DNA from: Synechococcus sp. MW101C3
GTDB lineage: Bacteria; Cyanobacteriota; Cyanobacteriia; PCC-6307; Cyanobiaceae
Direction of reading: 5' to 3'
Length of the DNA stretch: 64,000 nt
NCBI RefSeq assembly: GCF_002252635.1
Contig: NZ_NQKX01000005.1
Coordinates: 62,001 to 126,000 of the forward strand
Shown: positions 31,938 to 57,659 of the stretch, one piece after another
How the letters are laid out: each line of letters begins with the position of its first letter
How positions within the stretch are numbered: position 1 is the stretch's first letter
The notes under the pieces: model-generated
What the model was told of the DNA's origin: nothing
What the model saw: the letters and a program-made list of their open reading frames with translations, nothing else
The model's database searches: none
Translations under genes and position numbers: made by a program

Positions 31938-32837
31938 TCAAACCACGAAGAGAATGTCGTCCTGATCCCAGACATAGCCGTTGCCAGCCACCACCTGAGT
32001 GGTGTTGCCGTCGACGCTGACCGCAAGGGTGGAGGTGCCGAAGCCAGAGAATGCGCTGAAGTTGTTGGGGCCACCAACAGCTGCGGCGTCGAAGGCCAGC
32101 CTGTCGTCGCTAAAGGTGAAGTCGCTAATGGTGTCGACGTCGCCGCCGCCGAGCTGATCGGAGGTGTAGTAGAGGGTGTCGTTGCCATCGACACCCAGGC
32201 TGACGAAGTCAGACCCGGAACCACCGCGGATGAGATCGTTGCCGCCGAAGCCGTAGAGCTGGTCATCACCGGAGCCGCCGCGGATGAAGTCGGAGCCGCT
32301 GCCGCCGTAGATGGTGTCGTTGCCGGTGCCGCCGTGGGCATAGTTCTGGAAGTCGGTGCCCAGCTGGCCACCACCAGCCGCGTCAAGGACGGAGGTTGTC
32401 GAACCGATTTCGTTGCCGGCAGTGGTGCTGGTCAGATCGACCGTGACACTGGGGTCGTTGGAGTCGTTGCCGCCACCAAAATCACCAAGGCTGATCACCT
32501 TGGGGCTGTCAATCACACCAACTTCCTGCCGAGCTTCAACAATGTTGCCGCTGCCAAGAACCTGAACATTGGTGGAGCCAGCACCCAGGATGAGGGTATT
32601 GCTCGCGCCCGTCAGAAGAATTTCGTTCGTTTCACCGGCGGGAGCCGGCGTGGTTGCCCAAAAGGCGCCTTCACCACCAACTTCGACAGGGCCGCTGGTT
32701 CCATCAACCTGGGTGCGCTCCCCGTCAAAATCATCAATCGTGCCTGGATCCACTGGTACGAGGACTGAATCCCCCCCTTCTTCATCAAGTGGCCTTGTGC
32801 CAAAGATATCTGAGGCAGGGGGCGCAATGAAGGACAT
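31938..32837 (-). CDS. Small RTX (hemolysin-type calcium-binding) protein, probable type I secretion substrate
   Basis: 299 residues, acidic, cysteine-free and without N-terminal signal peptide, as expected for a type I secreted protein. Nonapeptide-type repeats at about 168-222 read GGTGNDTIYGGSGSDFIRGG, GSGDDQLYGFGGNDLIRGG and GSGSDFVSLGVDGNDTLYY. A short Gly/Asn-rich repeat (NTLILGAGSTNVQVLGSGN) precedes them. After the repeats, VDTISDFTFSDDRLAFD is the usual RTX capping segment, and the end VWDQDDILFVV would be the C-terminal secretion signal. There is no enzymatic domain, so it may be a surface-layer or adhesive subunit. An HlyB/HlyD pair sits 12 kb away in the same cluster. Its start at 32837 follows an AT-rich leader. 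Confidence 0.9.
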   Translation of the reverse strand: MSFIAPPASDIFGTRPLDEEGGDSVLVPVDPGTIDDFDGERTQVDGTSGPVEVGGEGAFWATTPAPAGETNEILLTGASNTLILGAGSTNVQVLGSGNIVEARQEVGVIDSPKVISLGDFGGGNDSNDPSVTVDLTSTTAGNEIGSTTSVLDAAGGGQLGTDFQNYAHGGTGNDTIYGGSGSDFIRGGSGDDQLYGFGGNDLIRGGSGSDFVSLGVDGNDTLYYTSDQLGGGDVDTISDFTFSDDRLAFDAAAVGGPNNFSAFSGFGTSTLAVSVDGNTTQVVAGNGYVWDQDDILFVV

Positions 32838-34502: not shown

Positions 34503-35486
34503 ATGGCCCAAGAAAGTTATAGCTATTTCTATCAGATCAAGTTTCCCGATAAGGGCGGAGATTCGTTCACGGTGGAATCGACACTGAGCAAAGAAATCCT
34601 GCTTGATGAGCCAGAAAAATTTGATGACGGCAAACTCACCATTGGAGAGACGGTGACGGTGACCCCCAGCGACGGGAAGGAAAGCTATACTTATACAGGA
34701 TATTCCTATGAAGGCTATCCTATTTTTGTGCTCGATGCGCCTGGCTCCGAAGGCGGCAAACCCTCTGAAGGCGCACCTGAAGGCCTGGATCCTGATCGCA
34801 CCTATGTTCTTGCCACGAACGACGAACTCGTACAATCGAAAGTTGAATACAAGACATCTTCATCGGCAGACCCTCTGGTTCTGTGCCTCGTTGAGGGCAC
34901 AAGCGTGCGGCTTGCGGATGGCAGCAGCAAGGATGTGGCGGCGTTGGAGGTGGGCGATGAGGTGCTCACGCCATCGGGCACTCATGCCGTGCGCTTTGTA
35001 GGGCAAACCACCCGCACGCTGTGGCAATTGCGCTCCACTGGCCGCATGCCGATCTGCATCGAAGCCGGAGCGTTGGGGGGCAAGGGGCCGGAGCAAGCGA
35101 TTCATTGCACCTCCAGCCACGCCTTCTTGATTGAAGGCTGCCTGGGGAAAGCGCAAGCGCTCATCAATGGCCGCACGATCCGCCAACTTGAGGAGTGGCA
35201 CGCCGGCACGGTGACGTACTACTCGATTGAGCTGGAGCGCCACGCACTGGTGTGGGCCAACGGCCTGCTGTGCGAAACCTATTTCGCCACCGCGCGCGGC
35301 AATCAGTTCAGCCGTGAGAGCTGGGACTACTTCTCCGCTTATCAGGCGCTGTATGGCAACGGCGCGGCGATGGTGGAGCTGGCGCTTTCGCGGATTCCGT
35401 TCGCACGCCAGCTGCCTGTGGAGATCCGCCAGCGGGTGGTCGCTGGTGCTCCCAGCCGTTCAGAGAAGGCACTGGCCCTGCGCTAA
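34503..35486 (+). CDS. Hint (hedgehog/intein) domain protein, probable secreted substrate
   Basis: 327 residues. The N-terminal 120 residues are a novel acidic, aromatic-rich region (SYSYFYQIKFPDKGG, SYTYTGYSYEGYPIF) with no signal peptide. From Cys128 a Hint_2-type autoprocessing domain runs to the end: CLVEGTSVRLADGSSKDVAA, LEVGDEVLTPSGTHAVRFVG, MPICIEAGALGGKGPEQAIH, CTSSHAFLIEG. In Hint proteins the leading cysteine and downstream His mediate peptide-bond rearrangement; here Cys128 and SSHAFL are present. Such domains often end RTX proteins and type I substrates. The 5' flank (34380-34500) is AT-rich and may carry a promoter. It follows the RTX gene region and probably shares the exporter. 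Confidence 0.82.
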   Translation: MAQESYSYFYQIKFPDKGGDSFTVESTLSKEILLDEPEKFDDGKLTIGETVTVTPSDGKESYTYTGYSYEGYPIFVLDAPGSEGGKPSEGAPEGLDPDRTYVLATNDELVQSKVEYKTSSSADPLVLCLVEGTSVRLADGSSKDVAALEVGDEVLTPSGTHAVRFVGQTTRTLWQLRSTGRMPICIEAGALGGKGPEQAIHCTSSHAFLIEGCLGKAQALINGRTIRQLEEWHAGTVTYYSIELERHALVWANGLLCETYFATARGNQFSRESWDYFSAYQALYGNGAAMVELALSRIPFARQLPVEIRQRVVAGAPSRSEKALALR

Positions 35487-36425: not shown

Positions 36426-37640
36426 ATGAGCCGGGAGGCCTACGAGCAGGGCAACTGGCAGGCCGTGATCGAGGCCCACCCGCCGGGAAGCCATGACCCG
36501 GCGGAATGGCTGCGTTACGCAGTGGCACTGCTGCAAACGCTCAAGCCTGGCCCGGAAGGAAGCCGGCTGCAACGACAGGCGGCGCTGGCCTTTCGGCAGG
36601 CGCAGACAGAAGGGGCAGAGCCCGCCGAGGTGATGGCAGCACAGCGGCAGGCCATCCGGCTGCTGCTGGCAGAAGGGCTGCTTCTGAGTGGAATGCAGCA
36701 GGAAGCGCTGGAGCTGCTGGCCAGCAGCTTGCCGGGGCAGATGGACTCTGAGGAGCGTGCCAGCCGGGCACGACTACTGGCAAACCAACAGCTGGTGAAT
36801 GCGGGGTATTGGTGGGAGGCCCAGGCTCTGCATTCCGAAGCGCTGAAAGCAATCCAGCCCGAATCACTCAGTCTCGACAGGCTTAACGCCGAATTGCAGA
36901 TCCTCAGGGTGGAAGGAGAGCTGCTATCTCATGAGTTGAGCCTGGCGCTCGGCCAGGGCGCCCTGGCGAGCCCACCGGCCAAGCCCAGCCCGTCGGAAGG
37001 CAGCTCTGAGCGCGACCGCTGGCTGAGCAAGAGCCGCTCCCAACTGGGCCAAGACCTCTGGGTGCTGGAACAGCTGGGCTGGAAGCGAGGTGGCTATTTC
37101 GTGGAATTCGGAGCCACCGATGGGGTGCTGTTGAGCAACAGCTGGCTACTGGAGAAGCACTTCGGATGGGAAGGAATCTGCGCCGAACCCAACCCGAAGC
37201 TGTTTGAGCGGCTGCAGCAGAACCGCTCCTGCACACTCAGCCCGGCCTGCGTGTACCGCAGCAGTGGGGAGCGCATGCGCTTTGTGCTGGCCGATGCCTA
37301 TGGCGGCCTAGCCGAGCTCGGCACAGAGGATCAACATGGTGCAAAACGTGAGGCTTACGCGGCGGCGGGTGAGGTGATGGAGGTCACCACCACGTCGCTG
37401 ATGGATCTGCTGGCACAGCACGGGGCACCGCCGCTGATCGACTACCTGAGCATCGACACCGAAGGCAGTGAGCTGGCGATCCTCGAAGGGCTGGATTGGG
37501 AGCGCTATCGGTTCAGATGCATCACGGTGGAGCACAACTTCACAGCGCAGCGCCAGGGCCTGCAAACCCTTTTGGAAGCGCGGGGGTATCAGCGCCAGGA
37601 AGCCCAGTGGGACGATTGGTATGTGCTTATGGATGAATGA
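36426..37640 (+). CDS. TPR-FkbM family methyltransferase (copy 1)
   Basis: 404 residues. The N-terminal 170 residues are helical (REAYEQGNWQAVIEAHPPGS, LRYAVALLQTLKPG). A linker ending with ELLSHELSLALGQGAL leads to an FkbM-type SAM methyltransferase: SQLGQDLWVLEQLGWKRGGY, FVEFGATDGVLLSNS (SAM loop), ICAEPNPKLFERL, LIDYLSIDTEGSELAILEG (family hallmark DTEGSE) and WYVLMDE at the end. FkbM enzymes O-methylate sugars or other hydroxyls, and in surface clusters they usually methylate glycan residues. From base 37031 it is almost identical to the copy at 41492. Confidence 0.9.
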   Translation: MSREAYEQGNWQAVIEAHPPGSHDPAEWLRYAVALLQTLKPGPEGSRLQRQAALAFRQAQTEGAEPAEVMAAQRQAIRLLLAEGLLLSGMQQEALELLASSLPGQMDSEERASRARLLANQQLVNAGYWWEAQALHSEALKAIQPESLSLDRLNAELQILRVEGELLSHELSLALGQGALASPPAKPSPSEGSSERDRWLSKSRSQLGQDLWVLEQLGWKRGGYFVEFGATDGVLLSNSWLLEKHFGWEGICAEPNPKLFERLQQNRSCTLSPACVYRSSGERMRFVLADAYGGLAELGTEDQHGAKREAYAAAGEVMEVTTTSLMDLLAQHGAPPLIDYLSIDTEGSELAILEGLDWERYRFRCITVEHNFTAQRQGLQTLLEARGYQRQEAQWDDWYVLMDE

Positions 37641-40751: not shown

Positions 40752-41096
40752 GACCGTAGCGGCCCAAGCCCGCGCACTACTGGCGGCAGGTGGGCAGCCC
40801 GCTCATCAGATTGCAGAGGGGTGCATGCAGTGGTGACGACGGGGGCAACCACAGCGTGCTGGCTCCCTTGAAGACAGAGAGACCAATCAGGAGTGCCCAA
40901 AGCCAGGTGCGACGGCGGCCTCCTCGCCCAAGGATCGGCACAGGATGTTGAGCAATGCTTCGGGCACTGTGGCACCGGTGGTGGCGCTGAGCGGAGGGTG
41001 TCGGATCGGCCGTCAGGCAATACAGAACGAGGTGAGCGATTGGCCGATGATGGGCCATACGTGCAGCCCCGATGGCCCAAGGAGCGATCAAGGCCC
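40752..41096. other. Gap without a supported gene
   Basis: About 345 bases before the second FkbM gene. Several open frames exist on both strands but none has recognisable protein character, apart from a short minus-strand hydrophobic stretch (WLWALLIGLSVFKGA near 40870). No hairpin or promoter was convincing. It may be debris from the event that placed the HTH segment before the FkbM copy. Confidence 0.3.
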
Positions 41097-42101
41097 ATGC
41101 CAGGCAAGCCCCTCGAACCTGCTCGACGTCCCACGCCAGAGCGAAAGGCCGAGGCCATCACCCTTTGCCAGGTGGAGGGCCTGCCTGTGGTCGAGGTGGC
41201 CAAGCGCCTTGGCCTCTCCCGGAGCAGCCTGAACCGCTGGCTACGCGATGCTCGAAAGGAGGCGAACGAAGCGGAGCGGATCAAGGCTCAGGTAGAGCAG
41301 CTCCATGCAGCCATCGAAGCAGCTGCCGCACAACACAGCGCGCTGGAGGCCCAGCTCAGCATCCTCCGCACGGAAGCGGAGCTGCTCTCGCATGAGCTGA
41401 GCCTGGCCCTGGCTGGCGGTGCGCTGAACGCGAAGCCCATCGCCAAGAAGCGGAAAGGGGCAGCGGACAGCGGCGAACGCTGGCAGCCCCTGAGCCACTC
41501 CCAACTGGGTCAAGACCTCTGGGTGCTGGAACAGCTGGGCTGGAAGCGGAGCGGCTATTTCGTGGAATTCGGAGCCACCGATGGGGTGCTGTTGAGCAAC
41601 AGCTGGCTACTGGAGAAGCACTTCGGCTGGGAAGGAATCTGCGCCGAACCCAACCCGAAGCTGTTTGAGCGGCTGCAGCAGAACCGCTCCTGCACACTCA
41701 GCCCGGCCTGCGTGTACCGCAGCAGTGGGGAGCGCATGCGCTTTGTGCTGGCCGATGCCTATGGCGGCCTGGCCGAGCTCGGCACAGAGGATCAGCACGG
41801 CCCCAAACGTGACGCTTACGCGGCGGCTGGTGAAGTGATTGAGGTCACGACCACGTCACTGATGGACCTGCTGGCACAGCACGGGGCACCGCCGCTGATC
41901 GACTACCTGAGCATCGACACCGAAGGCAGTGAGCTGGCGATCCTCGAAGGGCTGGATTGGGATCGTTATCAGTTCAGATGCATCACGGTGGAGCACAACT
42001 TCACGGCGCAGCGCCAGGGGCTGCAAACCCTTTTGGAAGCGCGGGGGTATCAGCGCCAGGAAGCCCAGTGGGACGATTGGTATGTGCTTATGGATGAATG
42101 A
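41097..42101 (+). CDS. HTH-FkbM methyltransferase fusion (copy 2)
   Basis: 334 residues from ATG 41097. Residues about 10-50 are a transposase OrfA-like helix-turn-helix: TPERKAEAITLCQVEGLPVV, EVAKRLGLSRSSLNRWLRDA. A coiled coil follows (ERIKAQVEQLHAAIEAAAAQ, then LRTEAELLSHELSLALAGGA, a segment shared with copy 1). The rest is an FkbM methyltransferase with FVEFGATDGVLLSNS, ICAEPNPKLF and LSIDTEGSELAILEG, nearly identical to copy 1 from base 41492. All SAM and DTEGSE residues are kept, so the enzyme should work. The HTH may now be only a leftover of a mobile element, or may give the protein DNA binding. Confidence 0.85.
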   Translation: MPGKPLEPARRPTPERKAEAITLCQVEGLPVVEVAKRLGLSRSSLNRWLRDARKEANEAERIKAQVEQLHAAIEAAAAQHSALEAQLSILRTEAELLSHELSLALAGGALNAKPIAKKRKGAADSGERWQPLSHSQLGQDLWVLEQLGWKRSGYFVEFGATDGVLLSNSWLLEKHFGWEGICAEPNPKLFERLQQNRSCTLSPACVYRSSGERMRFVLADAYGGLAELGTEDQHGPKRDAYAAAGEVIEVTTTSLMDLLAQHGAPPLIDYLSIDTEGSELAILEGLDWDRYQFRCITVEHNFTAQRQGLQTLLEARGYQRQEAQWDDWYVLMDE

Positions 42102-44064: not shown

Positions 44065-45558
44065 GTGAATCCTGCCATCCCTCTGGTACCCGTGATCCTC
44101 TGCGGCGGCACGGGCAGCCGCCTGTGGCCCCTGTCGCGGGCCAGCTATCCCAAGCAGTATTGGGCCCTGGCCGGCGACGGCAAGGACACCCTGCTGCAGC
44201 AGACCCACCAGCGGCTGGAGGGGCTGCCTGGCTTGGCGCCGCCGTTGCTGATCTGCAATGAGGGTCACCGCTTCATCGTGGCCGAGCAGATGCGGCAGAT
44301 CGGGGTGGAGCCGGCGGGGATCCTGCTGGAGCCGATCGGCCGCAACACCGCTCCGGCGGTGGCGGTGGCGGCCCTGCAGGCCACCGCCAAGGGCGACGAC
44401 CCGCTGCTGCTGGTGCTGACGGCCGACCATGTGATCCGCGATGCCGCCGCCTTCCGCACCAGCGTGGAAGCCGGGCGGGCAGCGGCGGAAGCGGGCCTGC
44501 TGGTGACCTTCGGGATCGTGCCCACGGGGCCGGAAACGGGCTATGGCTACATCGAGGCCGCCGAACCGGTGCGCAGCGAGGCACCGATGCCGATCGACGG
44601 CTTCGTGGAGAAGCCCGATCGCGCCACAGCCGAGCAGTTCCTGGCGCCGGGCCGCTTCACCTGGTACAGCGGCATGTTCCTCTTCCGTGCCAGCGCGATC
44701 CTGTCGGAACTGGAGCGGCTGGCCCCTGAGGTGTTGAGCGGCTGCCGGGCGGCGGCGCTGGATCAGGACACGGCCGATCTCGATTTCCTGCGGCTGGAGC
44801 GGGAAGCGTTCGCCAGCTCCCGGAGCGTGTCGATCGATGTAGCCGTGATGGAGCGCATGGGCCTGGGCGGGATGCTGTCGCTGGAGGCCGGCTGGAGCGA
44901 TTTGGGCAGTTGTAGCGCCCTGTGGGAAACGGCCGATCAGGACGCGCAGGGAAGCCTGCTGCTGGGGAGGGTGATCAATGAAGGCGCCAGCAACTGCCAC
45001 CTGCGCCGCGAACACCGGCTGGTGGTGGGCCTGGGGGTGGAGGATCTTGTGGTGGTGGAAACCGACGACGCCGTGCTGATCGCTCATCGCGACAGTGGCC
45101 AGGAGGTGCGGATTGTGGTGCGGCAGCTGGAGGCGGTGGGGGCGCGAGAGGGCAGCGCCCATCGGCGCATCTACCGGCCCTGGTGCTCCTACGACGGCAT
45201 CGTGGAGGGCGAGCGCTGGCAGGTGAAGAAGATCGTGGTGAATCCAAGCGCCAGCCTTTCGCTGAAGAAGCATCACCGCCGGGCAGAACACTGGGTGGTG
45301 ATGCAGGGCACCGCAGTGGTGGAGAAAGACGGCGTGGAGGAACTGGTGGATGAAAACCAGAGCACCTACATACCGCTCTGCGCTAAGCACCGCCTTGACA
45401 ACCCCGGCAAGATCGCGGTGGAGATGATTGAGGTGCAGAGCAGGCCTTGTCTGGGTGAAGACGCTCTTGTGCGCCTCGAAGATCGGTATGGGCGAACCGA
45501 CACGCAGAGCCAGGATGTCTCCCACTTGCAATCTGCCCTCAACGCCGGCGCGGAATGA
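44065..45558 (+). CDS. manC: Mannose-1-phosphate guanylyltransferase / mannose-6-phosphate isomerase
   Basis: A bifunctional type II enzyme making GDP-mannose, the precursor of GDP-fucose and mannans. It is 497 residues from GTG 44065. The nucleotidyltransferase half has PVILCGGTGSRLWPLSR (pyrophosphorylase signature), ILLEPIGRNTAPAVAVAA, LTADHVIRD, GIVPTGPETGYGYIE, GFVEKPD and SIDVAVMERM. The cupin isomerase half has YRPWCSYDGI, VNPSASLSLKKHHRRAEHWV (metal-binding His) and IPLCAKHRLDNPG. GDP-fucose synthase at the right edge of the window would use its product through Gmd, which is not in the window. Confidence 0.95.
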   Translation: MNPAIPLVPVILCGGTGSRLWPLSRASYPKQYWALAGDGKDTLLQQTHQRLEGLPGLAPPLLICNEGHRFIVAEQMRQIGVEPAGILLEPIGRNTAPAVAVAALQATAKGDDPLLLVLTADHVIRDAAAFRTSVEAGRAAAEAGLLVTFGIVPTGPETGYGYIEAAEPVRSEAPMPIDGFVEKPDRATAEQFLAPGRFTWYSGMFLFRASAILSELERLAPEVLSGCRAAALDQDTADLDFLRLEREAFASSRSVSIDVAVMERMGLGGMLSLEAGWSDLGSCSALWETADQDAQGSLLLGRVINEGASNCHLRREHRLVVGLGVEDLVVVETDDAVLIAHRDSGQEVRIVVRQLEAVGAREGSAHRRIYRPWCSYDGIVEGERWQVKKIVVNPSASLSLKKHHRRAEHWVVMQGTAVVEKDGVEELVDENQSTYIPLCAKHRLDNPGKIAVEMIEVQSRPCLGEDALVRLEDRYGRTDTQSQDVSHLQSALNAGAE

Positions 45559-45820: not shown

Positions 45821-46588
45821 ATGAAGGCCGTGATCCTTGCCGGCGGGCTCGGAACGCGACTTGCTGAGGAAACCCACCTCAAGCCAAAGCCGATGGTGGA
45901 GGTAGGCGGCAAGCCGATCCTTTGGCACATCCTCAAAACCTACAGCCACCATGGCATCAATGAATTCATCATCTGTTGTGGCTACAAGGGTTACGTGATC
46001 AAGGAGTACTTCGCCAACTACTTTCTACACACAAGCGACGTGACATTCCACATGGATCTCAACCACATGGAAATCCATCGCCGCATGGCCGAGCCCTGGA
46101 AGATCACCCTGGTGGATACGGGCGACACCTCGATGACGGGAGGCCGACTCGCTCGGGTCAGGGATTTTCTTCATGACACGTTCTGCTTCACCTACGGCGA
46201 CGGTGTGGCCGATGTGAACGTGGGTGCGCTGGTGGAGCACCATCGGCAGGAGGGGCGCCAGGCCACCCTTACGGCCGTTCAACCCCCAGGCCGTTACGGA
46301 GCTCTGGGCCTAGAGGAGAAAGCTGTCCATAGCTTCCAGGAAAAGCCCGATGGCGATGGCTCCTGGATCAATGGAGGCTATTTTGTTCTAGAGCCCTCCG
46401 TGATCGATCTCGTGGATGGAGATGCCTGCGTTTGGGAGCAGGGGCCGCTGAATCATCTAGCCAACAGCGGGCAGCTCAGCGCCTACCGCCACCACGGCTT
46501 TTGGCAGCCGATGGACACCCTGCGCGATCGCCAGAAGCTCGAGGAGCTTTGGACCAGCGGCCAGGCACCCTGGAAGGTGTGGAACTGA
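45821..46588 (+). CDS. rfbF: Glucose-1-phosphate cytidylyltransferase
   Basis: Makes CDP-glucose from glucose 1-phosphate and CTP, the first step of CDP-3,6-dideoxyhexose synthesis. It is 255 residues. Signatures are MKAVILAGGLGTRLAEETHL, KPKPMVEVGGKPILWHILK (which together hold the nucleotide loop and catalytic lysine), CCGYKGYVIKEYF, FTYGDGVADVNV, FQEKPDGDGSWINGGYFVLE and FWQPMDTLRDR. Its stop overlaps the start of rfbG (TGATG at 46586-46590). The 262-base gap before it holds no good gene and may have its own promoter. Confidence 0.96.
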   Translation: MKAVILAGGLGTRLAEETHLKPKPMVEVGGKPILWHILKTYSHHGINEFIICCGYKGYVIKEYFANYFLHTSDVTFHMDLNHMEIHRRMAEPWKITLVDTGDTSMTGGRLARVRDFLHDTFCFTYGDGVADVNVGALVEHHRQEGRQATLTAVQPPGRYGALGLEEKAVHSFQEKPDGDGSWINGGYFVLEPSVIDLVDGDACVWEQGPLNHLANSGQLSAYRHHGFWQPMDTLRDRQKLEELWTSGQAPWKVWN

Positions 46589-47697
46589 TGGCAGAAGGGA
46601 GGATCGATCCAGGCTGGTGGCGAGGCCGTCGGGTGTGGCTCACCGGCCACACCGGCTTCAAGGGAAGTTGGTTGGGGCTCTGGCTGTGTGAGATGGGGGC
46701 AAAGGTGAGCGCGGTGGGGCTGGAGCCAGAGGGTGTTCCCCATCTCTTCCATCAGCTCGATCTCTCACGCCGGCTAGACCACCACATCGGCGACATCCGG
46801 GATGCAGATGCCATGCGTGAACTGGCGGAGCAGGCCCAGCCCGAGGTGGTGCTGCATCTGGCGGCCCAGCCATTGGTGCGCCGCAGCTACCGGGATCCGC
46901 TTGGCACCTGGGCCACCAACGTGCAGGGAAGCCTCCACGTGCTGGAGGCCCTGCGCAGCCTCCAGCATCCCTGCGCTGTGGTGATGGTCACCACAGACAA
47001 GGTGTATGCCAACCGTGAATGGGATTACGGCTATCGGGAGAACGATCGCTTGGGCGGCCACGATCCCTACAGCGCCAGCAAGGCGGGCGCTGAAATCGCA
47101 ATCACCAGTTGGCGCCACAGTTTCTGTGGCCCTGCGGCCCATCAGACCCCGCACCTGGCCATCGCCACGGCCAGGGCCGGCAACGTGATCGGCGGCGGCG
47201 ACTGGGCGGAGGATCGGATCGTGCCGGATGCGATGCGGGCGCTGGCGGCGGGACAGGCGATCCCTGTTCGCAACCCACAGGCCACACGCCCCTGGCAGCA
47301 TGTGCTGGAACCTCTGGGGGGCTATCTGCTGCTGGCCGAACGGCTTCTGGAAGCGCACGGCACCTCCAAAGCCAATGCCTACACGGATGCCTTCAACTTT
47401 GGCCCCAGCCTCGAATCCAACCGAAGTGTGCGGGAGCTGATCGAGCAGGCGCTCCTTCATTGGCCTGGGCAATGGGCAGACCTGTCGGACGCCACCTCAC
47501 CCCATGAGGCGGGCCGGCTCCATCTCCAGGTGGACAAGGCCTACCACCAGCTGCACTGGTTGCCGCGCTGGGCATTCGACACCACGGTGGAACGAACGGT
47601 GGCCTGGTACCGACAGCTGGTGGAACAGCATGATGCGGCCCAGACCACCTGCCTGAATGACCTCGCAGCCTATGTCAACGCTTCCCCCACGAACTGA
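46588..47697 (+). CDS. rfbG: CDP-glucose 4,6-dehydratase
   Basis: Converts CDP-glucose to CDP-4-keto-6-deoxyglucose. A short-chain dehydrogenase/reductase of 369 residues from ATG 46588. The NAD loop is VWLTGHTGFKGSWLGLWL; the substrate/catalytic region has LAAQPLVRRSYRDPLGTWAT, MVTTDKVYANREW and the YxxxK pair in DPYSASKAGAE. RAGNVIGGGDWAEDRIVPD and NPQATRPWQHVLEPLGGYL are typical of this enzyme. The frame is open to 46432, but that part is antisense to rfbF. It is coupled to rfbF and two bases before rfbH. Confidence 0.96.
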   Translation: MAEGRIDPGWWRGRRVWLTGHTGFKGSWLGLWLCEMGAKVSAVGLEPEGVPHLFHQLDLSRRLDHHIGDIRDADAMRELAEQAQPEVVLHLAAQPLVRRSYRDPLGTWATNVQGSLHVLEALRSLQHPCAVVMVTTDKVYANREWDYGYRENDRLGGHDPYSASKAGAEIAITSWRHSFCGPAAHQTPHLAIATARAGNVIGGGDWAEDRIVPDAMRALAAGQAIPVRNPQATRPWQHVLEPLGGYLLLAERLLEAHGTSKANAYTDAFNFGPSLESNRSVRELIEQALLHWPGQWADLSDATSPHEAGRLHLQVDKAYHQLHWLPRWAFDTTVERTVAWYRQLVEQHDAAQTTCLNDLAAYVNASPTN

Positions 47698-47699
47698 CT

Positions 47700-49211
47700 A
47701 TGACTGACCTGATTGCCCTGAAACAGGAGATCCTCGAGCTCACCCGCCGCTACGCCAGGGAGGCCCATGCAGCTTTCCGGCCGGGTGTGGATCCGGATCG
47801 GTTGCCATGGCAGGAGGGGCAGGCGATTCCCTACGCCGGCCGGGTGTTCACCGAAGACGAGGTGGAGGCTGCGGTTGGAGCCACGCTGGATTTCTGGCTC
47901 ACCCTGGGATCCGAAGGTGCGGCGATGGAAAATGAGCTGGCGGCATTCTTGGGGGTGCGGCACAGCCTTTTGGTGAACTCGGGATCGTCGGCAAACCTTG
48001 TGGCGATCTCGGCGCTCACGAGCCACAAGCTTCCCGCTGGCAAACGGATCCGGCCCGGCGATGAGGTGATCACGGTGGCGGCGGGGTTCCCCACCACCGT
48101 GGCACCGATCGTGCAGGTGGGTGCGGTGCCGGTGTTCATCGATGCCGACCCGATCACGGGCAATGCCCGCTGTGACCAGCTGGAGCAGGCCTTCAGTGCC
48201 GGCAAGACCAAGGCGGTGATGATGGCCCACGCCCTGGGCAATCCATTCGACCTGGCTACCACACTGGCCTTCTGCCGGAAGCATGATCTCTGGCTGGTGG
48301 AGGACAACTGCGATGCGCTGGGCTGCAGCTACTCGATGCCCAGGGACCTAGCAGAAAGCCTCGGATTCAGCGAGAACAGCCCAGGGCTGGATGAGGGGCC
48401 GGATCGGGTAATCCGCTGGACGGGAACCTGGGGTGACATCAGCACCCAGAGCTTCTATCCACCACACCACCTCACGATGGGGGAGGGGGGGGCGGTCAAC
48501 ATCGTGCGGGATCAGAAGCTGAAGGTGGTCGCCGAGAGCTTCCGCGATTGGGGGCGCGATTGCTGGTGCCCCAGCGGTGTGGACAACACGTGCAACAAGC
48601 GCTTCGGTTGGCAGCTGGGTGAACTACCGGCTGGGTACGACCACAAGTACACCTACAGCCACCTGGGTTTCAATCTCAAGCCCCTCGATACCCAAGCAGC
48701 GATTGGCCGGGTGCAGATGCGGCGCCTCCCGGCGTTCATCGAGGCACGCAAGCAGAACTGGCAGGTCCTGCGCGCTGGGCTTGAGCGCCATGCCGCATGG
48801 CTTGATTTCGCCTTGCCCACCCATGCCACCGGCTGGAATGCTGATGGATCGTTTGATTGGGACGAAACCGGTTGCCGTACCATCTGCTCCTGGTTTGGCT
48901 TCAAGATCGCCGTGCGGCCGAAGGCTCCCTTCTCTCGTACTCAGCTAGCTCAGGAACTCGATGCACACCGCATCGGCAACCGCATGCTGTTCGGGGGAAA
49001 TCTCCTGCGCCAACCGGCCTTCGTCCAGCTGCGTGAGGACAATCCGGAAGCCCTGCGGGTTGCTACCTCTGTGGAGGGCTCCGATGAGATCATGAACACA
49101 ATTCTGTTCCTTGGCACCTATCCCGGGCTTTCAGAGGCCATGCTCCAGAACGAAGTCGATGTGATCGCAAACTTCTGTTTGGCGAACGCCGGTACCGCTA
49201 GCGCTGCTTAG
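47700..49211 (+). CDS. rfbH: CDP-4-keto-6-deoxyglucose 3-dehydratase (E1, RfbH/AscC type)
   Basis: A PMP-dependent, iron-sulfur dehydratase that removes the C3 hydroxyl, committing the sugar to a 3,6-dideoxyhexose. It has 503 residues, longer than the usual 430-440, partly from inserts such as NSPGLDEGPDRVIRW and a long C-terminal part. SGSSANLVAISALTSHKL and GFPTTVAPIVQVGAVPVF are family marks. The aminotransferase lysine is replaced by His: SFYPPHHLTMGEGGAV with His256-257, the change that makes this a dehydratase instead of a transaminase. Cysteines near DWGRDCWCPSGVDNTCNKRFG fit the 2Fe-2S site. The usual partner reductase (E3) is not in the window. Confidence 0.95.
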   Translation: MTDLIALKQEILELTRRYAREAHAAFRPGVDPDRLPWQEGQAIPYAGRVFTEDEVEAAVGATLDFWLTLGSEGAAMENELAAFLGVRHSLLVNSGSSANLVAISALTSHKLPAGKRIRPGDEVITVAAGFPTTVAPIVQVGAVPVFIDADPITGNARCDQLEQAFSAGKTKAVMMAHALGNPFDLATTLAFCRKHDLWLVEDNCDALGCSYSMPRDLAESLGFSENSPGLDEGPDRVIRWTGTWGDISTQSFYPPHHLTMGEGGAVNIVRDQKLKVVAESFRDWGRDCWCPSGVDNTCNKRFGWQLGELPAGYDHKYTYSHLGFNLKPLDTQAAIGRVQMRRLPAFIEARKQNWQVLRAGLERHAAWLDFALPTHATGWNADGSFDWDETGCRTICSWFGFKIAVRPKAPFSRTQLAQELDAHRIGNRMLFGGNLLRQPAFVQLREDNPEALRVATSVEGSDEIMNTILFLGTYPGLSEAMLQNEVDVIANFCLANAGTASAA

Positions 49212-49215
49212 GCTC

Positions 49216-50055
49216 ATGCGGATCTTCGTCACTGGCGGCACAGGCTTCATAGGTAGCCACTTTCTGAAGGTAGCCCTAGAGGCTGGACATGAGGTGCTGG
49301 CCGTTCGCCGCTATGAAACGTCGCATCCGGCTATTCCTTTGCCAAGTGAACCCACCTGGATCCAACGAGATCTAAACGATCTCCAATCGACAGACCTGAG
49401 CGGTTGTGACGTGGTAGTCCATCTTGCCTCGGCAGGGGTAAGTCCAAAACAGGCTTCCTGGCGAGAGCTCGTGCAAGTGAATGTCGTTGGATCGACTCAT
49501 CTAATTGCAACCGCTCAAACTGCGGGGGTTGATCGCGTAATTGTGGCAGGAACTTGTCACGAATACGGAGCCTCGGCCTCCCGATATGAGGCGATTCCAC
49601 CTGACGCGCCTCTGGAACCTCTCAGTCTCTATGGTGCGAGCAAGGCGGCTGCATTTCATTTGCTATGTGCTTATGCACGTACACATCGCGTCAAGTTCTG
49701 CTATGGACGGATTTTCACAGCCTACGGGGAGGGTCAGTACCATGGCAATTTCTGGCCCTCCCTCCGCGCAGCTGCTCTTCGTGGAGTTGACTTTCCCATG
49801 ACCACAGGACTACAGATTCGGGACTTCATTCCCGTGGAGAAAGTTTCATCCGTTTTGCTTGCGCGATGTGACCGAACGGATATTCATGTAGGCCAGCCAC
49901 GCGTTGAAAACATCGGATCTGGGCGACCGCAAACTCTGCTTGCCTTCGCCGAACAGGAATGGCGGCGCCTAGGCGCCAATGGAAGTTTATTGCCAGGCTC
50001 AATAACATCTCGCCATGATGAGATGGAACGAATTGTCTCCTTGGTTTCACAATAG
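49216..50055 (+). CDS. NAD(P)-dependent sugar epimerase/reductase (CDP-3,6-dideoxyhexose finishing enzyme)
   Basis: 279 residues, extended short-chain dehydrogenase: RIFVTGGTGFIGSHFLK binds the nucleotide, DVVVHLASAGVSPKQASWRE, AGTCHEYGAS, LYGASKAAAFHLL has the YxxxK pair, and YGRIFTAYGEGQYHGNFW forms the sugar pocket. Directly after rfbFGH, it probably reduces the 4-keto group of the dideoxy sugar, giving CDP-paratose or CDP-abequose; which one is decided by a few pocket residues I cannot assign. Composition falls toward AT here, as in the genes that follow. Confidence 0.85.
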   Translation: MRIFVTGGTGFIGSHFLKVALEAGHEVLAVRRYETSHPAIPLPSEPTWIQRDLNDLQSTDLSGCDVVVHLASAGVSPKQASWRELVQVNVVGSTHLIATAQTAGVDRVIVAGTCHEYGASASRYEAIPPDAPLEPLSLYGASKAAAFHLLCAYARTHRVKFCYGRIFTAYGEGQYHGNFWPSLRAAALRGVDFPMTTGLQIRDFIPVEKVSSVLLARCDRTDIHVGQPRVENIGSGRPQTLLAFAEQEWRRLGANGSLLPGSITSRHDEMERIVSLVSQ

Positions 50056-50317: not shown

Positions 50318-52147
50318 ATGAACATCGATCAGATTGCGGAGATGAATCAACTCATCGAGAAGCTACAGGCGAAAGAGATTGACTTTGACTATTGCACACA
50401 AAGAGCAACAGAAGTTTTTGCAGCTGTTCACGACGCATCCGACAAGAAATCATCAGCAGATGTTAAGTATTGGTATAATATGCTGCTACAGAATGGGGCT
50501 GAGCGCGAGCCACCTCCATCTCCTCATACTGCGTTCCTCGATTTTCTCGAATACGTTAAAGCACACTCACCCGACACAGTTGTTGTTGATTGCGTAGATT
50601 TCTCGAAATCTATCAGATGGCATCTTGATCCATCTGACAAAGCAAGTGCTGGTTTCCTTTCGAAAGGTTGTTATAGGCTTTTCACAGACATGGTTTCTAT
50701 TGAGGCCGGCTTTCATGAACTATTTCTAAAAGAGAGCCCAGGAAGTTCAGACTGGCGGCAGCTTCTTGCAAGTTGTCACCGTGAAGTAAGCGCAAACACT
50801 TTAGAAGAGTCGGTAGCTGAAAGTTCCGCACAAGAACATATCAGCCAGAATCTGCAGAAGCTACGCAATAATATCACGCATTGGCACGTTATTGTCGCAA
50901 AAGGAGGGCTTAGAGTTCCCTTCTCCAATGGCAACACTTTATCATTCGTCCCTCCTGCAGGAACAATAGTCATTTCGGAGAGGCTAGGAAGTTTGCTGGG
51001 CTATCCGTTCATTATTGGAAGCTTAGTGGTGTGCCCAGTCTACTCTGGCTGGATTAATACTCTAGAAAGTGTTTACTTAATTGATCTAGAGGGAATGAAC
51101 TCATACTTCCTTGGCAAGGACATGGGAAGCAGGTATTTGTTTAAGGAGCATTATCGAACAAAACTTGATGCAGGCATCTCCACCTTAATGAAAGATGTAA
51201 TTGCGTTAAGCCGTGATGGCACTCAGCCAGTCAAGCTAGCGTATATTGCCGGTCAGAGGATTAACTTTGGACACACTATAATCCAAGACATGAACTTCAT
51301 TGAATCGGCCTCCTCCCTGGATCCCTACAATAAAGCAAGTCTTTTGATCGGTGAGCATGACTACCTTTGTACGTCCCGCCAACTTAGTGCTTCAGATAAG
51401 TGGAAACCAGAAAACGTGCTGCCTATACGGGAGTTCGCTTGTGGATACAATACATTTGCGATTCCAGCATTTGAATGCTATCCATTGCCAACATTTCGCG
51501 CTACAAGTTCTTCAATAGATAAACTCTCGAAGTATTTTCAGGCCTCTCCTGGCCTGCCTATCACTAAGAAAAGCGCGATCTATCTCTCGATTGATCAGAG
51601 GACTGGAGCCAGATCCTGCAATAACTACGATAGAATCTGCGACTGTATAGTAGAGCTAGCACTCCGCCATGGCACTGATGCTATAATTCTGGATTCTCTT
51701 ACATCAGTTCCGGTCTATGGCAAGAATGGATTCAATCGCATAGTTGAGCATGGCTTAATTAAGCCATTCGAGCCAGAGATTTATAAGCAGATCAAAATGA
51801 GACTAGAGTCTTGCTCTCTTATGGCTCAAGACTGGCATGGATCTGACTTACTGTCCAAAGTAGTCTATGCTCAGAATTTTCAAGTCAAGGCAGCAGTGGC
51901 TTCTTATGGATCGTCTTTAATGATTCCGATTTATATTCTTAATTGCCCAGTATATATTTTTGGCCATGAACTTCATGACAAAGCGCTGGGAGAATGGCGG
52001 TGGCATACTGGCGTCTATTGTTTTGATCAAAGGATCGAGCCTGAGCATTGGATCACATCAACGGGTGATCATAATGGCTATTGCGTAGATATTCCATGCT
52101 TAGGAGATGCTCTTGAGGACGCCTTGAGCGCAACAACTAATGGATAG
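50318..52147 (+). CDS. Unknown large protein, GT61-like features (paralogue A)
   Basis: 609 residues. I do not recognise the family. Residues about 1-190 are helical (EMNQLIEKLQAKEIDFDYC). The C-terminal two thirds have AYIAGQRINFGHTIIQDMNF, SAIYLSIDQRTGARSCNNYD, CIVELALRHGTDAIILDSLT, and KAAVASYGSSLMIPIYILNC. The last three resemble, in order and spacing, the GT61 fold: an Ile-rich strand, an Arg-containing loop, a helix and a later strand that ends in a short loop. It is similar to the following gene and, more remotely, to the middle of the 25.6 kb fusion protein. Likely a glycosyltransferase of a new branch. Codon use and base composition are AT-richer than in the core genes, suggesting transfer. 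Confidence 0.72.
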   Translation: MNIDQIAEMNQLIEKLQAKEIDFDYCTQRATEVFAAVHDASDKKSSADVKYWYNMLLQNGAEREPPPSPHTAFLDFLEYVKAHSPDTVVVDCVDFSKSIRWHLDPSDKASAGFLSKGCYRLFTDMVSIEAGFHELFLKESPGSSDWRQLLASCHREVSANTLEESVAESSAQEHISQNLQKLRNNITHWHVIVAKGGLRVPFSNGNTLSFVPPAGTIVISERLGSLLGYPFIIGSLVVCPVYSGWINTLESVYLIDLEGMNSYFLGKDMGSRYLFKEHYRTKLDAGISTLMKDVIALSRDGTQPVKLAYIAGQRINFGHTIIQDMNFIESASSLDPYNKASLLIGEHDYLCTSRQLSASDKWKPENVLPIREFACGYNTFAIPAFECYPLPTFRATSSSIDKLSKYFQASPGLPITKKSAIYLSIDQRTGARSCNNYDRICDCIVELALRHGTDAIILDSLTSVPVYGKNGFNRIVEHGLIKPFEPEIYKQIKMRLESCSLMAQDWHGSDLLSKVVYAQNFQVKAAVASYGSSLMIPIYILNCPVYIFGHELHDKALGEWRWHTGVYCFDQRIEPEHWITSTGDHNGYCVDIPCLGDALEDALSATTNG

Positions 52148-53909
52148 AACAGATTTATACAACCCAGTTCTTATGCGTCTGATTAGGAATGGATCCTCCC
52201 TAACTGGTGAGCACAGCGTTGATAGAGTCAAGGCCTCAATAATGTATTCCAAACTCCTTTTATCTGATAGCATCAAAAATGTTCCACTGCGTGAATCTAC
52301 CATTGATTACGCAAAAGTCTTTCGGGCGGAAAACCATCCCAGACTTTCTAGTTGCTTGCATAGCATATTTACTTCAGACTATACGTTCTATCAGTTTCTT
52401 GAGGCCATGGGGTCTTCAATTATGGCTGATAAGGCTTTTAACAGCCTTGGAGATTATGCGCATCTCAGCATTGCCGATGTATTTCGAAGTGAATGGTTTT
52501 CAGCTACCCCATATGACATGCTCGTGGACGCTTCACCGCATCCTCCAGCCGATATCTTGGCATTGAACAAGTACTGGGCAGAGAACTATAAAGCGTGCCA
52601 TTGGCATACAATATGGAATAGAATCCCACTGCTACCTGTAGTGCATGATTCCAATCCTGAGGCGCTTGTTCAGCCATTTATGTCTCTCTGCTTGCCTCAT
52701 AATGTTGGGAGCACAATCATCTTTGGCTACTCGATTGGGGATCTGCTTGTCTGCCCAGTATATTCCAGGTTAATGGTAGAGTTCTGTGGTGTACTACTTG
52801 CCGACCTTCATACAGCCGAAAGCGCTCTGCTTGCATCTTGCTGCCTAGCTAGCAACTTAGAAGCTGATGACTTTATGATGAGATCTATAGTTGACAGCAT
52901 TAATCTATCGCTACGCGCTTTGCAAAGTGTTAAGAATAGTGCAGTTTCGACTGTACCACTTGAGCGAACATTGTTGGCCGGAATGCATTATAATTATGGC
53001 CATACGATAATCAATGATACTCTGTATATTGACCCAGACTTTTCATTGCGACCAAAAGCCGATGACCCATGTACCACTGTTACGCTTGGGCTATGGGATT
53101 ACGTTGATTCAGAATTAGTCTTAATGACGCAATCCGCAAACAGCCTAGAGCTTCGTTTTCGATCTTTGGAAAATGATAAGCTGGACTATTTCTTTGTTTC
53201 CTTTCAATATTATTATTGTCCTTTGCCATCCCACCGGCCTAGCTTGAGATCTCTCCGATCTCTTTCTGTTGCCTGCAGAAAGGCCTTGGGTGCCACGTAT
53301 CATGGTTTTCATCAGTTCAGCAGTGCTGCTATTCAAAAGACAGAGACTCTCGTTAAAAGTATCTACATAGCCGTTGATCAACGACAAGGTTGCAGACAGA
53401 TGCTTAATGCAGTCGATGTATTCAACATCATTTCAGAGTTTGCTCGTTCAAGAGGGCTCGCTCTTATTATCGACGGCTTAACCAGTTATCCGGTTTACCC
53501 TGTAGACGTGGAAGGCTCACATTCTCGAAACTACCGGTTTCAGCCTGCACTCAAAGGCTGCACAGACTTGCTTGAAATAGCTAAATCAATGCAAGTTCAG
53601 GCAGCAAACCTAGATGGCATGACACTCCAGCAGAAGATTGGCTTCATGCGGAGTCAAGATATCTGGCACGCATTTACTTCTTATGGCTCTTCATCGATAA
53701 TACCGATTTATCTTCTCAATTGTAGAATATCTATTTATGGCTCCTCGTATCTCGCGAAAAGCACGAGAAGCGCATGGTCATGGCATATAAGTAGCTTATG
53801 CCATCCGCAGAGGGTAACCCAAGAATTCTACTTACCATCTTCATCCCAAGGCGATGCGGGCTATTTCGTTGATATTGAATTTATGCGCAAGTTTTTGGAA
53901 GAGCTGTAG
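52140..53909 (+). CDS. Unknown large protein, GT61-like features (paralogue B)
   Basis: 589 residues. Its start ATG 52140 overlaps the stop of paralogue A by eight bases. Shared blocks with A: LLAGMHYNYGHTIINDTLYI, KSIYIAVDQRQGCRQMLN, FARSRGLALIIDGLTSYPVY, FTSYGSSSIIPIYLLNC and WSWHISSLCHPQRV; the same Gly-His, DQR, DGLTS and SYGSS residues recur, so those are the likely active-site or structural residues. The N-terminal third is divergent. The tandem pair probably works as a two-subunit system or adds two sugars. No transmembrane segment was seen. The stop is followed by about 250 bases without a gene before the IS remnants. Confidence 0.72.
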   Translation: MDRTDLYNPVLMRLIRNGSSLTGEHSVDRVKASIMYSKLLLSDSIKNVPLRESTIDYAKVFRAENHPRLSSCLHSIFTSDYTFYQFLEAMGSSIMADKAFNSLGDYAHLSIADVFRSEWFSATPYDMLVDASPHPPADILALNKYWAENYKACHWHTIWNRIPLLPVVHDSNPEALVQPFMSLCLPHNVGSTIIFGYSIGDLLVCPVYSRLMVEFCGVLLADLHTAESALLASCCLASNLEADDFMMRSIVDSINLSLRALQSVKNSAVSTVPLERTLLAGMHYNYGHTIINDTLYIDPDFSLRPKADDPCTTVTLGLWDYVDSELVLMTQSANSLELRFRSLENDKLDYFFVSFQYYYCPLPSHRPSLRSLRSLSVACRKALGATYHGFHQFSSAAIQKTETLVKSIYIAVDQRQGCRQMLNAVDVFNIISEFARSRGLALIIDGLTSYPVYPVDVEGSHSRNYRFQPALKGCTDLLEIAKSMQVQAANLDGMTLQQKIGFMRSQDIWHAFTSYGSSSIIPIYLLNCRISIYGSSYLAKSTRSAWSWHISSLCHPQRVTQEFYLPSSSQGDAGYFVDIEFMRKFLEEL

Positions 53910-54157
53910 TCAAAATAGGGATTCCTGAAAGTTACAGATTGGTTGTTCTCCACTTGGCCTTAGCGGTTGACAGACGGTAAGCCCAGCCAGGAATGCGGTA
54001 ATCGTGGATTGCTGCTACTGATCACAGCCGCACATGTCCCGTCAGCACCATAGCGGTCAGCTTTCAATCGTGGATTTCCACGTGCCCTTTGGCCGCACAC
54101 TCGCCCATTTCAACGGCTGTGTACGGTCGTCCCTCCAATTGGCGCACAAGTTGAGCC

Positions 54158-54471
54158 AAGCCTCCCCGCTTTCCGGAAAGATGTCACCCCTCTCCATCGC
54201 ACACCCGGGGGCTTTATGGAGGAGATCAATGCGTCGTTACAGCGAGGCCGTCTAGGAAGCTGCTGAAAAACCAGCCCAGCCGCGAGAGATTGACGAAACG
54301 GCACTGAGCGGGTGCACAGCCAGCAGGAGAGGGCCGTGCCCCTGTTCTCCTACGTGTCCACCGAGGCCCCCCTCTGCCCGGAAAGATGACGCCTCCCCAT
54401 CCTGACCACTTTTTCCACCAGGGGTCTTGATGGATCAGAGCTATGCGTCGTTACAGCGAGGCCGTCTAGAC
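54158..54471 (+). repeat. Imperfect direct repeat at the left side of the IS remnant
   Basis: Two segments (54158-54255 and 54361-54471) share the layout CCGGAAAGATG...CATC... and both end in an identical 27-base stretch (54229-54255 and 54443-54469), encoding MRRYSEAV then a stop. MRRYSEA is the start of OrfA of an IS3-group element, so these are two copies of the same IS 5' end. Confidence 0.75.
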
Positions 54472-54960
54472 GCAGGCTTGTGCGCAGCAGTGGGCTGATG
54501 TCAGGTGGCGGATGAGACCGCCACATCGAAGAGGCGTGGCCCAGATCTCCGCAGAATTGGGCATTCACGTGGGCACCCTCTACAACTGGAGGAAGACCTG
54601 GCGGATACAGTGAGAGGTGGTACCGGCATCCGAGAAGGATGCTGAGGGCTGGGGCGCCACCAAAACAAGTTTCCGGTGGTGGTGGAGACCGCAGGATTGA
54701 ACACCACCGAGCTCAGCGCATGTTGCCGCGAGCGGGGCCTGCCTGCACGCGGGGCAGGTGGAGCGCTGGCGACAGGCATCCCAGGATGCCAACGAAAAGC
54801 CAGTATTCACCTTGGAGACCTAATCCGGCGAGCTCGACGAGCTGTCGGAGCAGAGGGAGCTCGAACTGCTCCTTGCCCAGGTCCAGCGGGAGATCATACG
54901 CCTCAAACAGGAGCTGCGCCGCAAGGAGAAGGCCCTGGCCGAGGCGGCAGCGCTGCTGTA
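54443..54960 (+). pseudogene. IS3-family OrfA remnant
   Basis: Broken transposase subunit. Pieces can be followed through several frames: MRRYSEAV; VAQISAELGIHVGTLYNWRK TWR (the HTH, from about 54538, split here only for reading); VVVETAGLNTTELSACCRER; then QVERWRQASQDANEKPVFTL-like sequence and REIIRLKQELRRKEKALAEA before a stop near 54961. The order matches OrfA of IS3-group elements, with at least two frameshifts and several stops. Confidence 0.75.
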
Positions 54961-55020
54961 GCGGAACGCTTCTGCGAAGCAGTACGCCTCACAAAAGATT
55001 CAAGCCTTCTGGGGAGAGTA

Positions 55021-56135
55021 CGGGGACGCCTGACGACCCCGAACGACCGCCGGAAAGCCCAACAAATTCTCGACGAGGGTGTTGCCGATGGTGCCCGAGA
55101 CAGTGAGCTGGCTCTGCTCCTGGGCGTTGGCCTCACCACGCTGCAACGCTGGCGACGCCAGTTCGCCGCTGATGGCGACGGTGTAGACCGGCGCAAGGGA
55201 CGCCAACGCCATGTGGCTCACCGCCTAAGTGAGGAGGAGCTACAGCGAATCCCGCTCACCTGTAACGAGCCCGAATTCGCCGCGCTGCCGCCCAGGCAGA
55301 TCGTGCCGATCCTGGCCGATCGCGACCCGTATAACTCCTTTGGAGAGGCCTGCGGCTACGGCTCAGAGCGCAGCTTCTACCGGGTGCTGCATACCCAGGT
55401 AGGCCCAACGCCGCGGACGTGCCAGGCCACCCCAGGAGCCGCGCCCAGTGCCAAGGCTGCGGGCCGATGGCCCGAACCAGGTGTGGAGCTGGGACATCAC
55501 CCACCTCCCGACCAAGGTGCGAGGCGTGTGGCTGTACCTCTACCAGGTGATCGAAGTCTGGAGCCACAAGGTGGTGGCCTGGGATGTCGCCGAGCGGGAA
55601 GCCCCAGCCATTGCAGCCGATGTGATGAGCCTGGCCTGCCGACGCGAACGGGTCAGCAAGGGTCGCCAGCAGCTGCTGATACTGCATGCCGATAACTGCA
55701 ATGCCTAGCCGCAGGCTTCTCGCAAAGTTGTGTGCCGCTACGATGGAGAGCCGGCTGGAAGGTCTGGATGTGCTGCGGTCGTTCTCAAGGCCCAGAGTGT
55801 CGAATGACAACCCCTATTCCGAGTCGCCATTCTGCACGGCGAAATGCCGGCCTGATTAACCAAGCCGGCCGTTCGCCAGTGTGGAGGAGGCCTGCCATTG
55901 GGTAGCGACGGTCGTGGGCTGGTACAACCACCAGCATGGCCACAGCGGCATCAAGTTCGTGACGCCCCACCAGCGCCACAGCGCCCTGGCTCTCGAAATC
56001 TGCCTTCACCGGGCCAACGTCTATGAGCAGGCCCGCCAACAGCATCCCCACCCCTGGAGTCGATCGTCGCGGTGCTGGCGTCAGTCGGAGATTGTGCGGA
56101 TCAATCCGCCTCCACCAGAAGGCCACGCCGAAATG
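55021..56135 (+). pseudogene. IS3-family OrfB (DDE integrase) remnant
   Basis: Broken transposase. Frame 1: LTTPNDRRKAQQILDEGVAD, LALLLGVGLTTLQRWRRQFA, EFAALPPRQIVPILADRD. After a frameshift near 55440 it reads GPNQVWSWDITHLPTKVRGV (first catalytic Asp) and LYLYQVIEVWSHKVVAWDV, ILHADNCNA then a stop where the family has HSDNGxPM. The end is found again in another frame near 55881: VGWYNHQHGHSGIKFVTPHQ, with the final catalytic Glu before it reading EEACHWV. Inactive: two frameshifts and a stop. Confidence 0.82.
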
Positions 56136-56402: not shown

Positions 56403-57317
56403 TCATGGCGCAGGGGGCTGGGTTTTCCAGAGCCTCCGGAGGCTCATGAAATACTTGTGAGATGCTGGGGATGTTATCATCAGCAGATCTATAAACCTGT
56501 CATCACGAAATGACTGGCCAATGCTTGGGCTGTCAAAGGTGAGGAAATCTTCTCTGCAGCCTGAAAGCGGCGCCGATTGCCTCATAGTAACTGCAAACGG
56601 AAGGTCTTTTTTCCATCCTGCCGATGCAGGCTCTCGAAAAATAGCCAGAGACAGCAAGTTGGCAATATCATCCAATGGAGATTGGAGAAGTTGTTCGTAC
56701 TCAACTATCACCAACTTGTCTTGCCTCACCTGCTGTGCCTCAAGATAAGCAAGGAGCAGCGCCCAAGTCCTTAGGTACCAGTCCCTCCAGGCAAAGTATT
56801 CATTTACCTTGATTTCCAACACCAGCGCATCATAACTCTTATTGATCCACTTTCCTCCTTGGCGGGCTTTCAATGTGGACACATAAATGTCAAACAGATT
56901 ATTTCTATAGTTGCAAAGTATGAATGTGTCTGACATAATTATGCGCTGCAGCAGCTCCTCATAGTTCTCAGTGATTAAGAAGTCGCCGAAGACATGTTCA
57001 GCGAATAGCTTCGAAACTACAAGCTTATTCTTTGCGTGCTTCTTCAAACCTATTCCTGCAGCGGCTAGTGCAAGCTCATGAGCTTGAAGAGGGCTGGCGG
57101 CCAGGGATCGGCCAACAAGGTCTCGAACTAATGCTTGTAGCGAATCACTGAGACTTTCGGCCAGCTTAGTGTCCAAGAAGTAGTTATACTCGACTGAGCC
57201 ACGGGCATGTTTATATATCTCGCCAAACGGATAGATCGACTGACTAGCCGCCAAGATGCTTAGCAGCATATTAGAACCGCTTCTTCCAGTTGCGAGAATG
57301 AGAACGTCACTAGGCAT
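56403..57317 (-). CDS. Sulfotransferase
   Basis: 304 residues from ATG 57317 (ATG 57353 and a longer frame to 57410 are possible). The PAPS 5'-phosphosulfate loop is at the N-terminus, DVLILATGRSGSNMLLSIL, followed by YPFGEIYKH; the 3'-phosphate region is represented by FILCNYRNNLFDIYVSTL. The rest (NEYFAWRDWYLRTWALLLAY, KLVIVEYEQLLQSPLDDIAN) is the usual sulfotransferase C-terminal lobe, with ending residues WKKDLPF and SFRD. AT-richer than the core. It and the following two glycosyltransferases form a minus-strand block with similar composition. Confidence 0.82.
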   Translation of the reverse strand: MPSDVLILATGRSGSNMLLSILAASQSIYPFGEIYKHARGSVEYNYFLDTKLAESLSDSLQALVRDLVGRSLAASPLQAHELALAAAGIGLKKHAKNKLVVSKLFAEHVFGDFLITENYEELLQRIIMSDTFILCNYRNNLFDIYVSTLKARQGGKWINKSYDALVLEIKVNEYFAWRDWYLRTWALLLAYLEAQQVRQDKLVIVEYEQLLQSPLDDIANLLSLAIFREPASAGWKKDLPFAVTMRQSAPLSGCREDFLTFDSPSIGQSFRDDRFIDLLMITSPASHKYFMSLRRLWKTQPPAP

Positions 57318-57353
57318 CGCATTCAATGCTTCTCTAGAATAGGATTGGCGCAT

Positions 57354-57659
57354 ACGAGATAACCATATCACACATATATGACGGAGACCACCCTCGAAAC
57401 AGCTCCACACCCAACCATACGGCAGAGACCCACCCGTTGCCCTGACTGGAAGTAGATTGGCAGGCTCGCCTGATGTACGGGCCGGCTTGAGGTGACCGGA
57501 TGCGGCAAAAGGATCCTGCTATTAGATTCTCACATTGTTATCTCCAGCTTGGCTTAGCATTTCCAGAAACGGCGAAAGCCTTTCTGAGGCATAAACTCGC
57601 TTTCCAACAAAAGACAACCACCTCACGCGAGGCTAGTGAACTGGTGTTATCACCAACCC
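57354..57659. other. Intergenic region without a supported gene
   Basis: About 306 bases between the sulfotransferase and the 799-residue glycosyltransferase on the same strand. Nothing persuasive: short frames only, no strong hairpin. The sulfotransferase promoter may be here. Confidence 0.3.

Follow-up and report, generated by a model that had tools for sequence, protein, structure and literature searches.

A tandem pair of divergent GT61-like proteins encoded behind a CDP-3,6-dideoxyhexose cassette in Synechococcus sp. MW101C3

We found that two large unannotated genes, here called A (P0001) and B (P0002), lie directly behind a CDP-3,6-dideoxyhexose cassette (rfbF-rfbG-rfbH-reductase), on the same strand, in a 64,000-nucleotide stretch of Synechococcus sp. 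MW101C3 DNA (the window). This gene setting is new here and was absent from the initial annotation of the stretch. That the two proteins are distant, previously unclassified relatives of GT61 transferases is well supported as a statement of homology, as judged from sequence comparison. We further propose, with about even confidence, that A and B are paralogous GT61-like transferases moving a CDP-3,6-dideoxyhexose onto a surface polysaccharide.

The gene pair and its surroundings

Gene A (50318..52147, + strand) encodes 609 residues, with a core spanning approximately residues 300-609, and gene B (52140..53909, +) encodes 589 residues, with its core at approximately 265-589. Both reading frames are intact and share 8 bases at 52140-52147 (ATGGATAG), in agreement with the two overlapping genes described initially. 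The series of ordered blocks that the initial annotation had listed as common to both proteins is also borne out, since every block occurs in both proteins and their order is shared (NFGHTII/NYGHTII, SIDQR/VDQRQG, ILDSLTSVPVY/IDGLTSYPVY, and SYGSS followed by IPIY). By BLASTP, A and B share 128 of 444 residues (29%, E=3e-38), and such a value over this length indicates that they are true paralogues rather than proteins with a chance motif resemblance. Moreover, the identity between A and B is about the same as that to a relative in another genome, G073 (26-29%); therefore, the tandem does not stem from a recent duplication.

The cassette upstream of the pair comprises rfbF/ddhA, encoding a glucose-1-phosphate cytidylyltransferase (45821..46588, +; TIGR02623, 472.7 bits, cut-off 300), rfbG/ddhB, encoding a CDP-glucose 4,6-dehydratase (46588..47697, +; TIGR02622, 482.6 bits, cut-off 278), rfbH/ddhC, encoding a CDP-4-keto-6-deoxyglucose 3-dehydrase (47700..49211, +; NF011936, 611 bits, cut-off 423), and a short-chain reductase (SDR; 49216..50055, +) in the place of the paratose/abequose synthase gene (prt/abe). 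It is preceded by a manC-like gene for a mannose-1-phosphate guanylyltransferase/mannose-6-phosphate isomerase, which supplies GDP-mannose (44065..45558, +; PF00483, PF01050 and PF22640). No RfbE remnant was detected between the reductase and the pair, and the window genome holds no close RfbE (best 29-36%), so that the sugar of this genome would be of the paratose or abequose type.

Both A and B have a GC content of 0.44 and a GC3 of 0.42. The window as a whole has a GC content of 0.63, so that the AT-richer composition reported before is confirmed. From manC to rfbH, the genes directly upstream range from 0.59 to 0.67 GC, and the AT-rich stretch starts already in the preceding SDR gene (GC 0.54, GC3 0.48). 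Matches to promoters and terminators were no more than expected by chance. Taken together, the composition, a transposase remnant lying just downstream and the very patchy distribution described below support the earlier suggestion that the pair was acquired from elsewhere.

The transposase remnants occupy the region directly downstream (53910-56100), where the ORF at 54676-55695 has HTH domains and a 54-nt sequence is directly repeated at 54202 and 54416 (87% identical). These are followed by a weakly sulfotransferase-like protein (56403-57410, - strand; PF13469, E=3e-4, below the cut-off) and then by two large GT4-like proteins, and all three are AT-rich. Elsewhere in the window, the ORFs at 36426-37640 and 40893-42101 have nearly identical FkbM methyltransferase C-termini, and the latter carries a transposase-type HTH at its N-terminus, which suggests a duplication into a transposase remnant. 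An RTX calcium-binding protein and a Hint-domain protein are encoded close together (31938-32837 and 34503-35486), and a proper GT61 domain (PF04577, E=7e-18) lies at approximately 23630-24166 (+), inside a long open frame that belongs to the same cluster region.

Relationship to GT61

GT61 (PF04577) includes POMGNT2, EOGT, plant xylan transferases and bacterial capsule GT61 enzymes. The initial annotation had suggested a divergent GT61-type transferase and had named the Pfam GT61 profile as a check. We found no match to PF04577 (Glyco_transf_61) at E<=1 in A, in B, or in the two further family members, L003 from G073 and L181 from G643. Searches of Pfam, NCBIfam and PHROGs revealed no relatives of A or B, and a PDB sequence search of A gave only a single weak, chance-like match. 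A GT61 profile built from 28 PF04577 proteins of related genomes, when run on single proteins, did not score above shuffled sequences; the signal appears in profile-profile mode only.

Using hhalign, a profile of three members scored 34.0 locally against GT61, with at most 24.8 in 200 column permutations, and 28.5 globally, with at most 11.1. The core profile of all four members (A, B and the G073 and G643 proteins; hereafter A6) matched the 28 GT61 sequences with a global probability of 91.6 (P=1e-7) and a score of 41.3, against a best of 9.5 in 60 column permutations. As a harder control, 72 real four-sequence sets from six families, GT4 and GT9 of the GT-B type among them, gave a best local score of 33 and a best global score of 22.2, both from GT4, a family that shares the GT-B fold; A6 reached 37.9 and 41.3, respectively. 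Profiles of GT4, GT9 and sulfotransferases gave no hhalign signal against A6. On the other hand, leaving out members shifted the global score to between 24 and 46, the global probability was 26% without L003, and a narrow alignment of 10 GT61 sequences gave a 6% probability in local mode. We thus regard the profile evidence for a GT61 relationship as good but not overwhelming.

The two profiles run collinearly from the GH strand through the R loop, the G-x5-K helix and the GS block to the C-terminal VD..L. The A6 alignment pairs NFGH with the GT61 NYxHW strand, IYLxxDQRxGxRxxN with lYisRxxaxxRRvlN, G-x5-K with the EQv helix, YGSSxxIP with pHGAGLTN and VD..L with the corresponding GT61 segment, whereas a D-x2-T-x2-P block forms an insertion relative to GT61. 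It is unlikely, in our opinion, that A and B are instead some other polysaccharide-modifying or structural proteins whose motif resemblance to GT61 arose by convergence. Such an explanation would fit the lack of any family match in Pfam, NCBIfam and PHROGs, the low pLDDT (31.5 and 32.4) of AlphaFold2 models of the whole protein and the core, computed from alignments of two sequences each, and the moderate local scores that GT-B decoys attain (up to 33), but the global score of 41 is well above that of every decoy and the GT61 landmarks are all collinear.

In EOGT and POMGNT2, an Asn and a pair of Arg bind the diphosphate of UDP (N245/R372/R377 and N163/R294/R298, respectively), H248 of EOGT and H166 of POMGNT2 are the proposed catalytic bases, and EOGT reads the uridine through Q412 and H432 (PMC13123520). 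By comparison with EOGT N245/H248 and POMGNT2 N163/H166 (PMC13123520), N316-F-G-H319 of A (51263..51274, +) would provide the phosphate-binding Asn and the catalytic-base His of the GT61 N-x2-H motif; its equivalent in B is N285-Y-G-H288 (52992..53003, +). The R-x3-R-x3-N loop, with the Arg pair of this N-R-R constellation, corresponds to R428-TGA-R432-SCN-N436 in A (51599..51625, +) and R415-QGC-R419-QML-N423 in B (53382..53408, +), and its spacing is that of POMGNT2 (SRTQNRLILN). The His (H319 in A, H288 in B) and the two Arg do not vary among the four family members. The constellation is complete in the window pair (N316-R428-R432 and N285-R415-R419), while its Asn is replaced by Ser in L003 and by Cys in L181; proteobacterial GT61 proteins have a Gly at this position (PMC13123520).

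Since the Asn, the His and both Arg are kept in A and B alike, we think it very improbable that only one of the two proteins is catalytic, with the other as its inactive partner in a heterodimer, even though the overlapping genes suggest co-translation and G073 has a single member.

The pair thus resembles GT61 in the order and spacing of the N/S/C-x-x-H strand, the R-x3-R-x3-N loop, the helix preceding the GS block, and the C-terminal VD..L, as well as in keeping the predicted catalytic His and the two phosphate-binding Arg. It differs in the block replacing HGAGLTN, which reads [YC]GS[SG]xx[IT]P across the family and lacks the HGAG His (YGSSLMIP in A, 51905..51928, +; YGSSSIIP in B, 53682..53705, +), in the family-specific D-x2-T-x2-P block absent from GT61 (D459-SLTSV-P465 in A, 51692..51712, +; D445-GLTSY-P451 in B, 53472..53492, +), and in an N-terminal part of 230-300 residues without relatives, amounting to approximately 300 residues of unknown relation in A. 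It also differs in lying next to CDP-sugar genes, whereas the GT61 enzymes with known structures use UDP donors. The initial GT61 assignment is supported in part: the profile-profile similarity and the conserved His and Arg pair speak for it, but with HGAG replaced and no PF04577 match the proteins are relatives of GT61 and not members as Pfam defines the family.

Distribution of the family and its cassette

A search of several hundred related genomes together with phylum and family samples, in which the cassette was not used, revealed a third member in G073 (613 residues, 26% identical), present as a single gene and not in tandem. The fourth (L181:16603-18267, 554 residues, 19-21% identical, E=1.3e-6 among 1123 ORFs) was located in G643 by reading the gene neighbourhoods of rfbH in other genomes of the family (38 stretches). 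These are the only two further relatives in >600 genomes, and both lie near rfbH genes. No more clear members emerged from an A6 profile search of 241 + 80 genomes, none from scanning 84,980 species genomes and IMG/VR viral contigs for sequence patterns, an approach limited to relatives that share the chosen motifs, and none from a tblastn search of plasmids and phages. Hence, the family is sparse; since the G643 protein was missed by the first profile, more divergent members may exist.

In G073, the member lies downstream of rfbF-rfbG-rfbH-reductase-RfbE, on the same strand and all within an AT-rich block. Approximately 8 kb separate it from the cassette, the recognised ORFs in between being transposase-like (IS elements), so that it is the next gene with a non-transposase assignment. 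The window and G073 cassettes have diverged, with identities of 84% (RfbF), 71% (RfbG), 82% (RfbH) and 54% (reductase), and the G073 RfbE matches CDP-tyvelose 2-epimerase (E=1e-124). The region of the G073 member (L128-L131 and L004; G073 2340000-2418000) is crowded with repeated transposase copies and contains a stranded low-GC gene of unknown family (L129:4568-5623).

The RfbH cut-off was passed in 49 of 400 family genomes, and an rfbH gene is present in all three genomes with members, of which only the first two are unbiased because G643 was found via rfbH. A member right after the cassette was seen at two loci only, those of the window and G073. Other rfbH loci carry different genes behind the reductase, namely a GT2 pair, a GT61 proper (on the opposite strand in G722) or an oxidoreductase, and the place is therefore not exclusive to this family.

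Two other genomes also encode GT61 proteins right next to rfbFGH cassettes (L168:7613-8971 and L174:6251-7441, the L174 one below the cut-off). At L186:11810-15599, the genes behind a tyvelose-type cassette encode a long protein of hydrophobic appearance, a 123-residue protein and a GT2, and L179 has a similar layout by ORF content. This layout resembles a three-component Gtr glycosylation module, of which Pfam recognised the GT2 only. A cassette gene order like that of L186 was found at L179, L184, L185, L188, L190 and L199.

Proposed function and sugar donor

In Salmonella and Y. pseudotuberculosis, the ddh genes are followed by abe or prt/tyv and then by the dideoxyhexosyl transferase and wzx (PMC3715488). 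We read A and B as candidate dideoxyhexose transferases because they sit behind the cassette, because this arrangement recurs in G073 and because it matches the place of the Salmonella/Yersinia transferases. The likeness to the WbaV-type O-antigen transferases of these bacteria is one of gene place, behind the ddh genes and a prt/tyv-type reductase/epimerase (PMC3715488), and would extend to the proposed donor; in contrast to the WbaV type, no GT2-type domain was detected in the window pair.

We infer that A and B would act directly after the CDP-3,6-dideoxyhexose pathway, within a surface-polysaccharide cluster, and add the dideoxyhexose to the growing repeat unit: a paratose- or abequose-type sugar here and a tyvelose-type one in G073. 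The transfer would be metal-independent and inverting, carried out by a two-lobed enzyme with a GT-B-like fold, in which the His of N-x-x-H may serve as the catalytic base on the acceptor hydroxyl while the donor diphosphate would be bound by the R-x3-R pair, joined in A and B by the Asn. The base-reading pocket may have been remodelled by the exchange of HGAG for [YC]GS and by the D-x2-T-x2-P block, which could suit cytidine over uridine. The two paralogues may divide the labour between them.

It is possible, though we hold it rather doubtful, that these GT61-like transferases use another donor of the same cluster, such as GDP-mannose or a UDP-sugar, and that the adjacency to the cassette is incidental. 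The same GT61 profile evidence would apply, a manC-like gene is nearby, GT61 proper is widespread (22 of 60 related genomes), and the structurally characterised GT61 enzymes use UDP donors (PMC13123520). However, the order of cassette and then member recurs in G073, found without using the cassette, and rfbH occurs in three of three member genomes against 49 of 400 family genomes (two of the three being unbiased); both points favour the dideoxyhexose reading.

More tentatively, these proteins might form a glycosyltransferase family in their own right, a sister of GT61 that would merit its own CAZy number, which would be dedicated to 3,6-dideoxyhexoses and would have switched from UDP to CDP through the remodelling of the pocket. 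If true, this would show how donor choice can shift within the GT61 fold, with the phosphate grip kept and the base-reading block changed. Likewise, A and B would be candidates for the transfer of 3,6-dideoxyhexoses in these bacteria, and two compact unannotated genes would gain a testable function.
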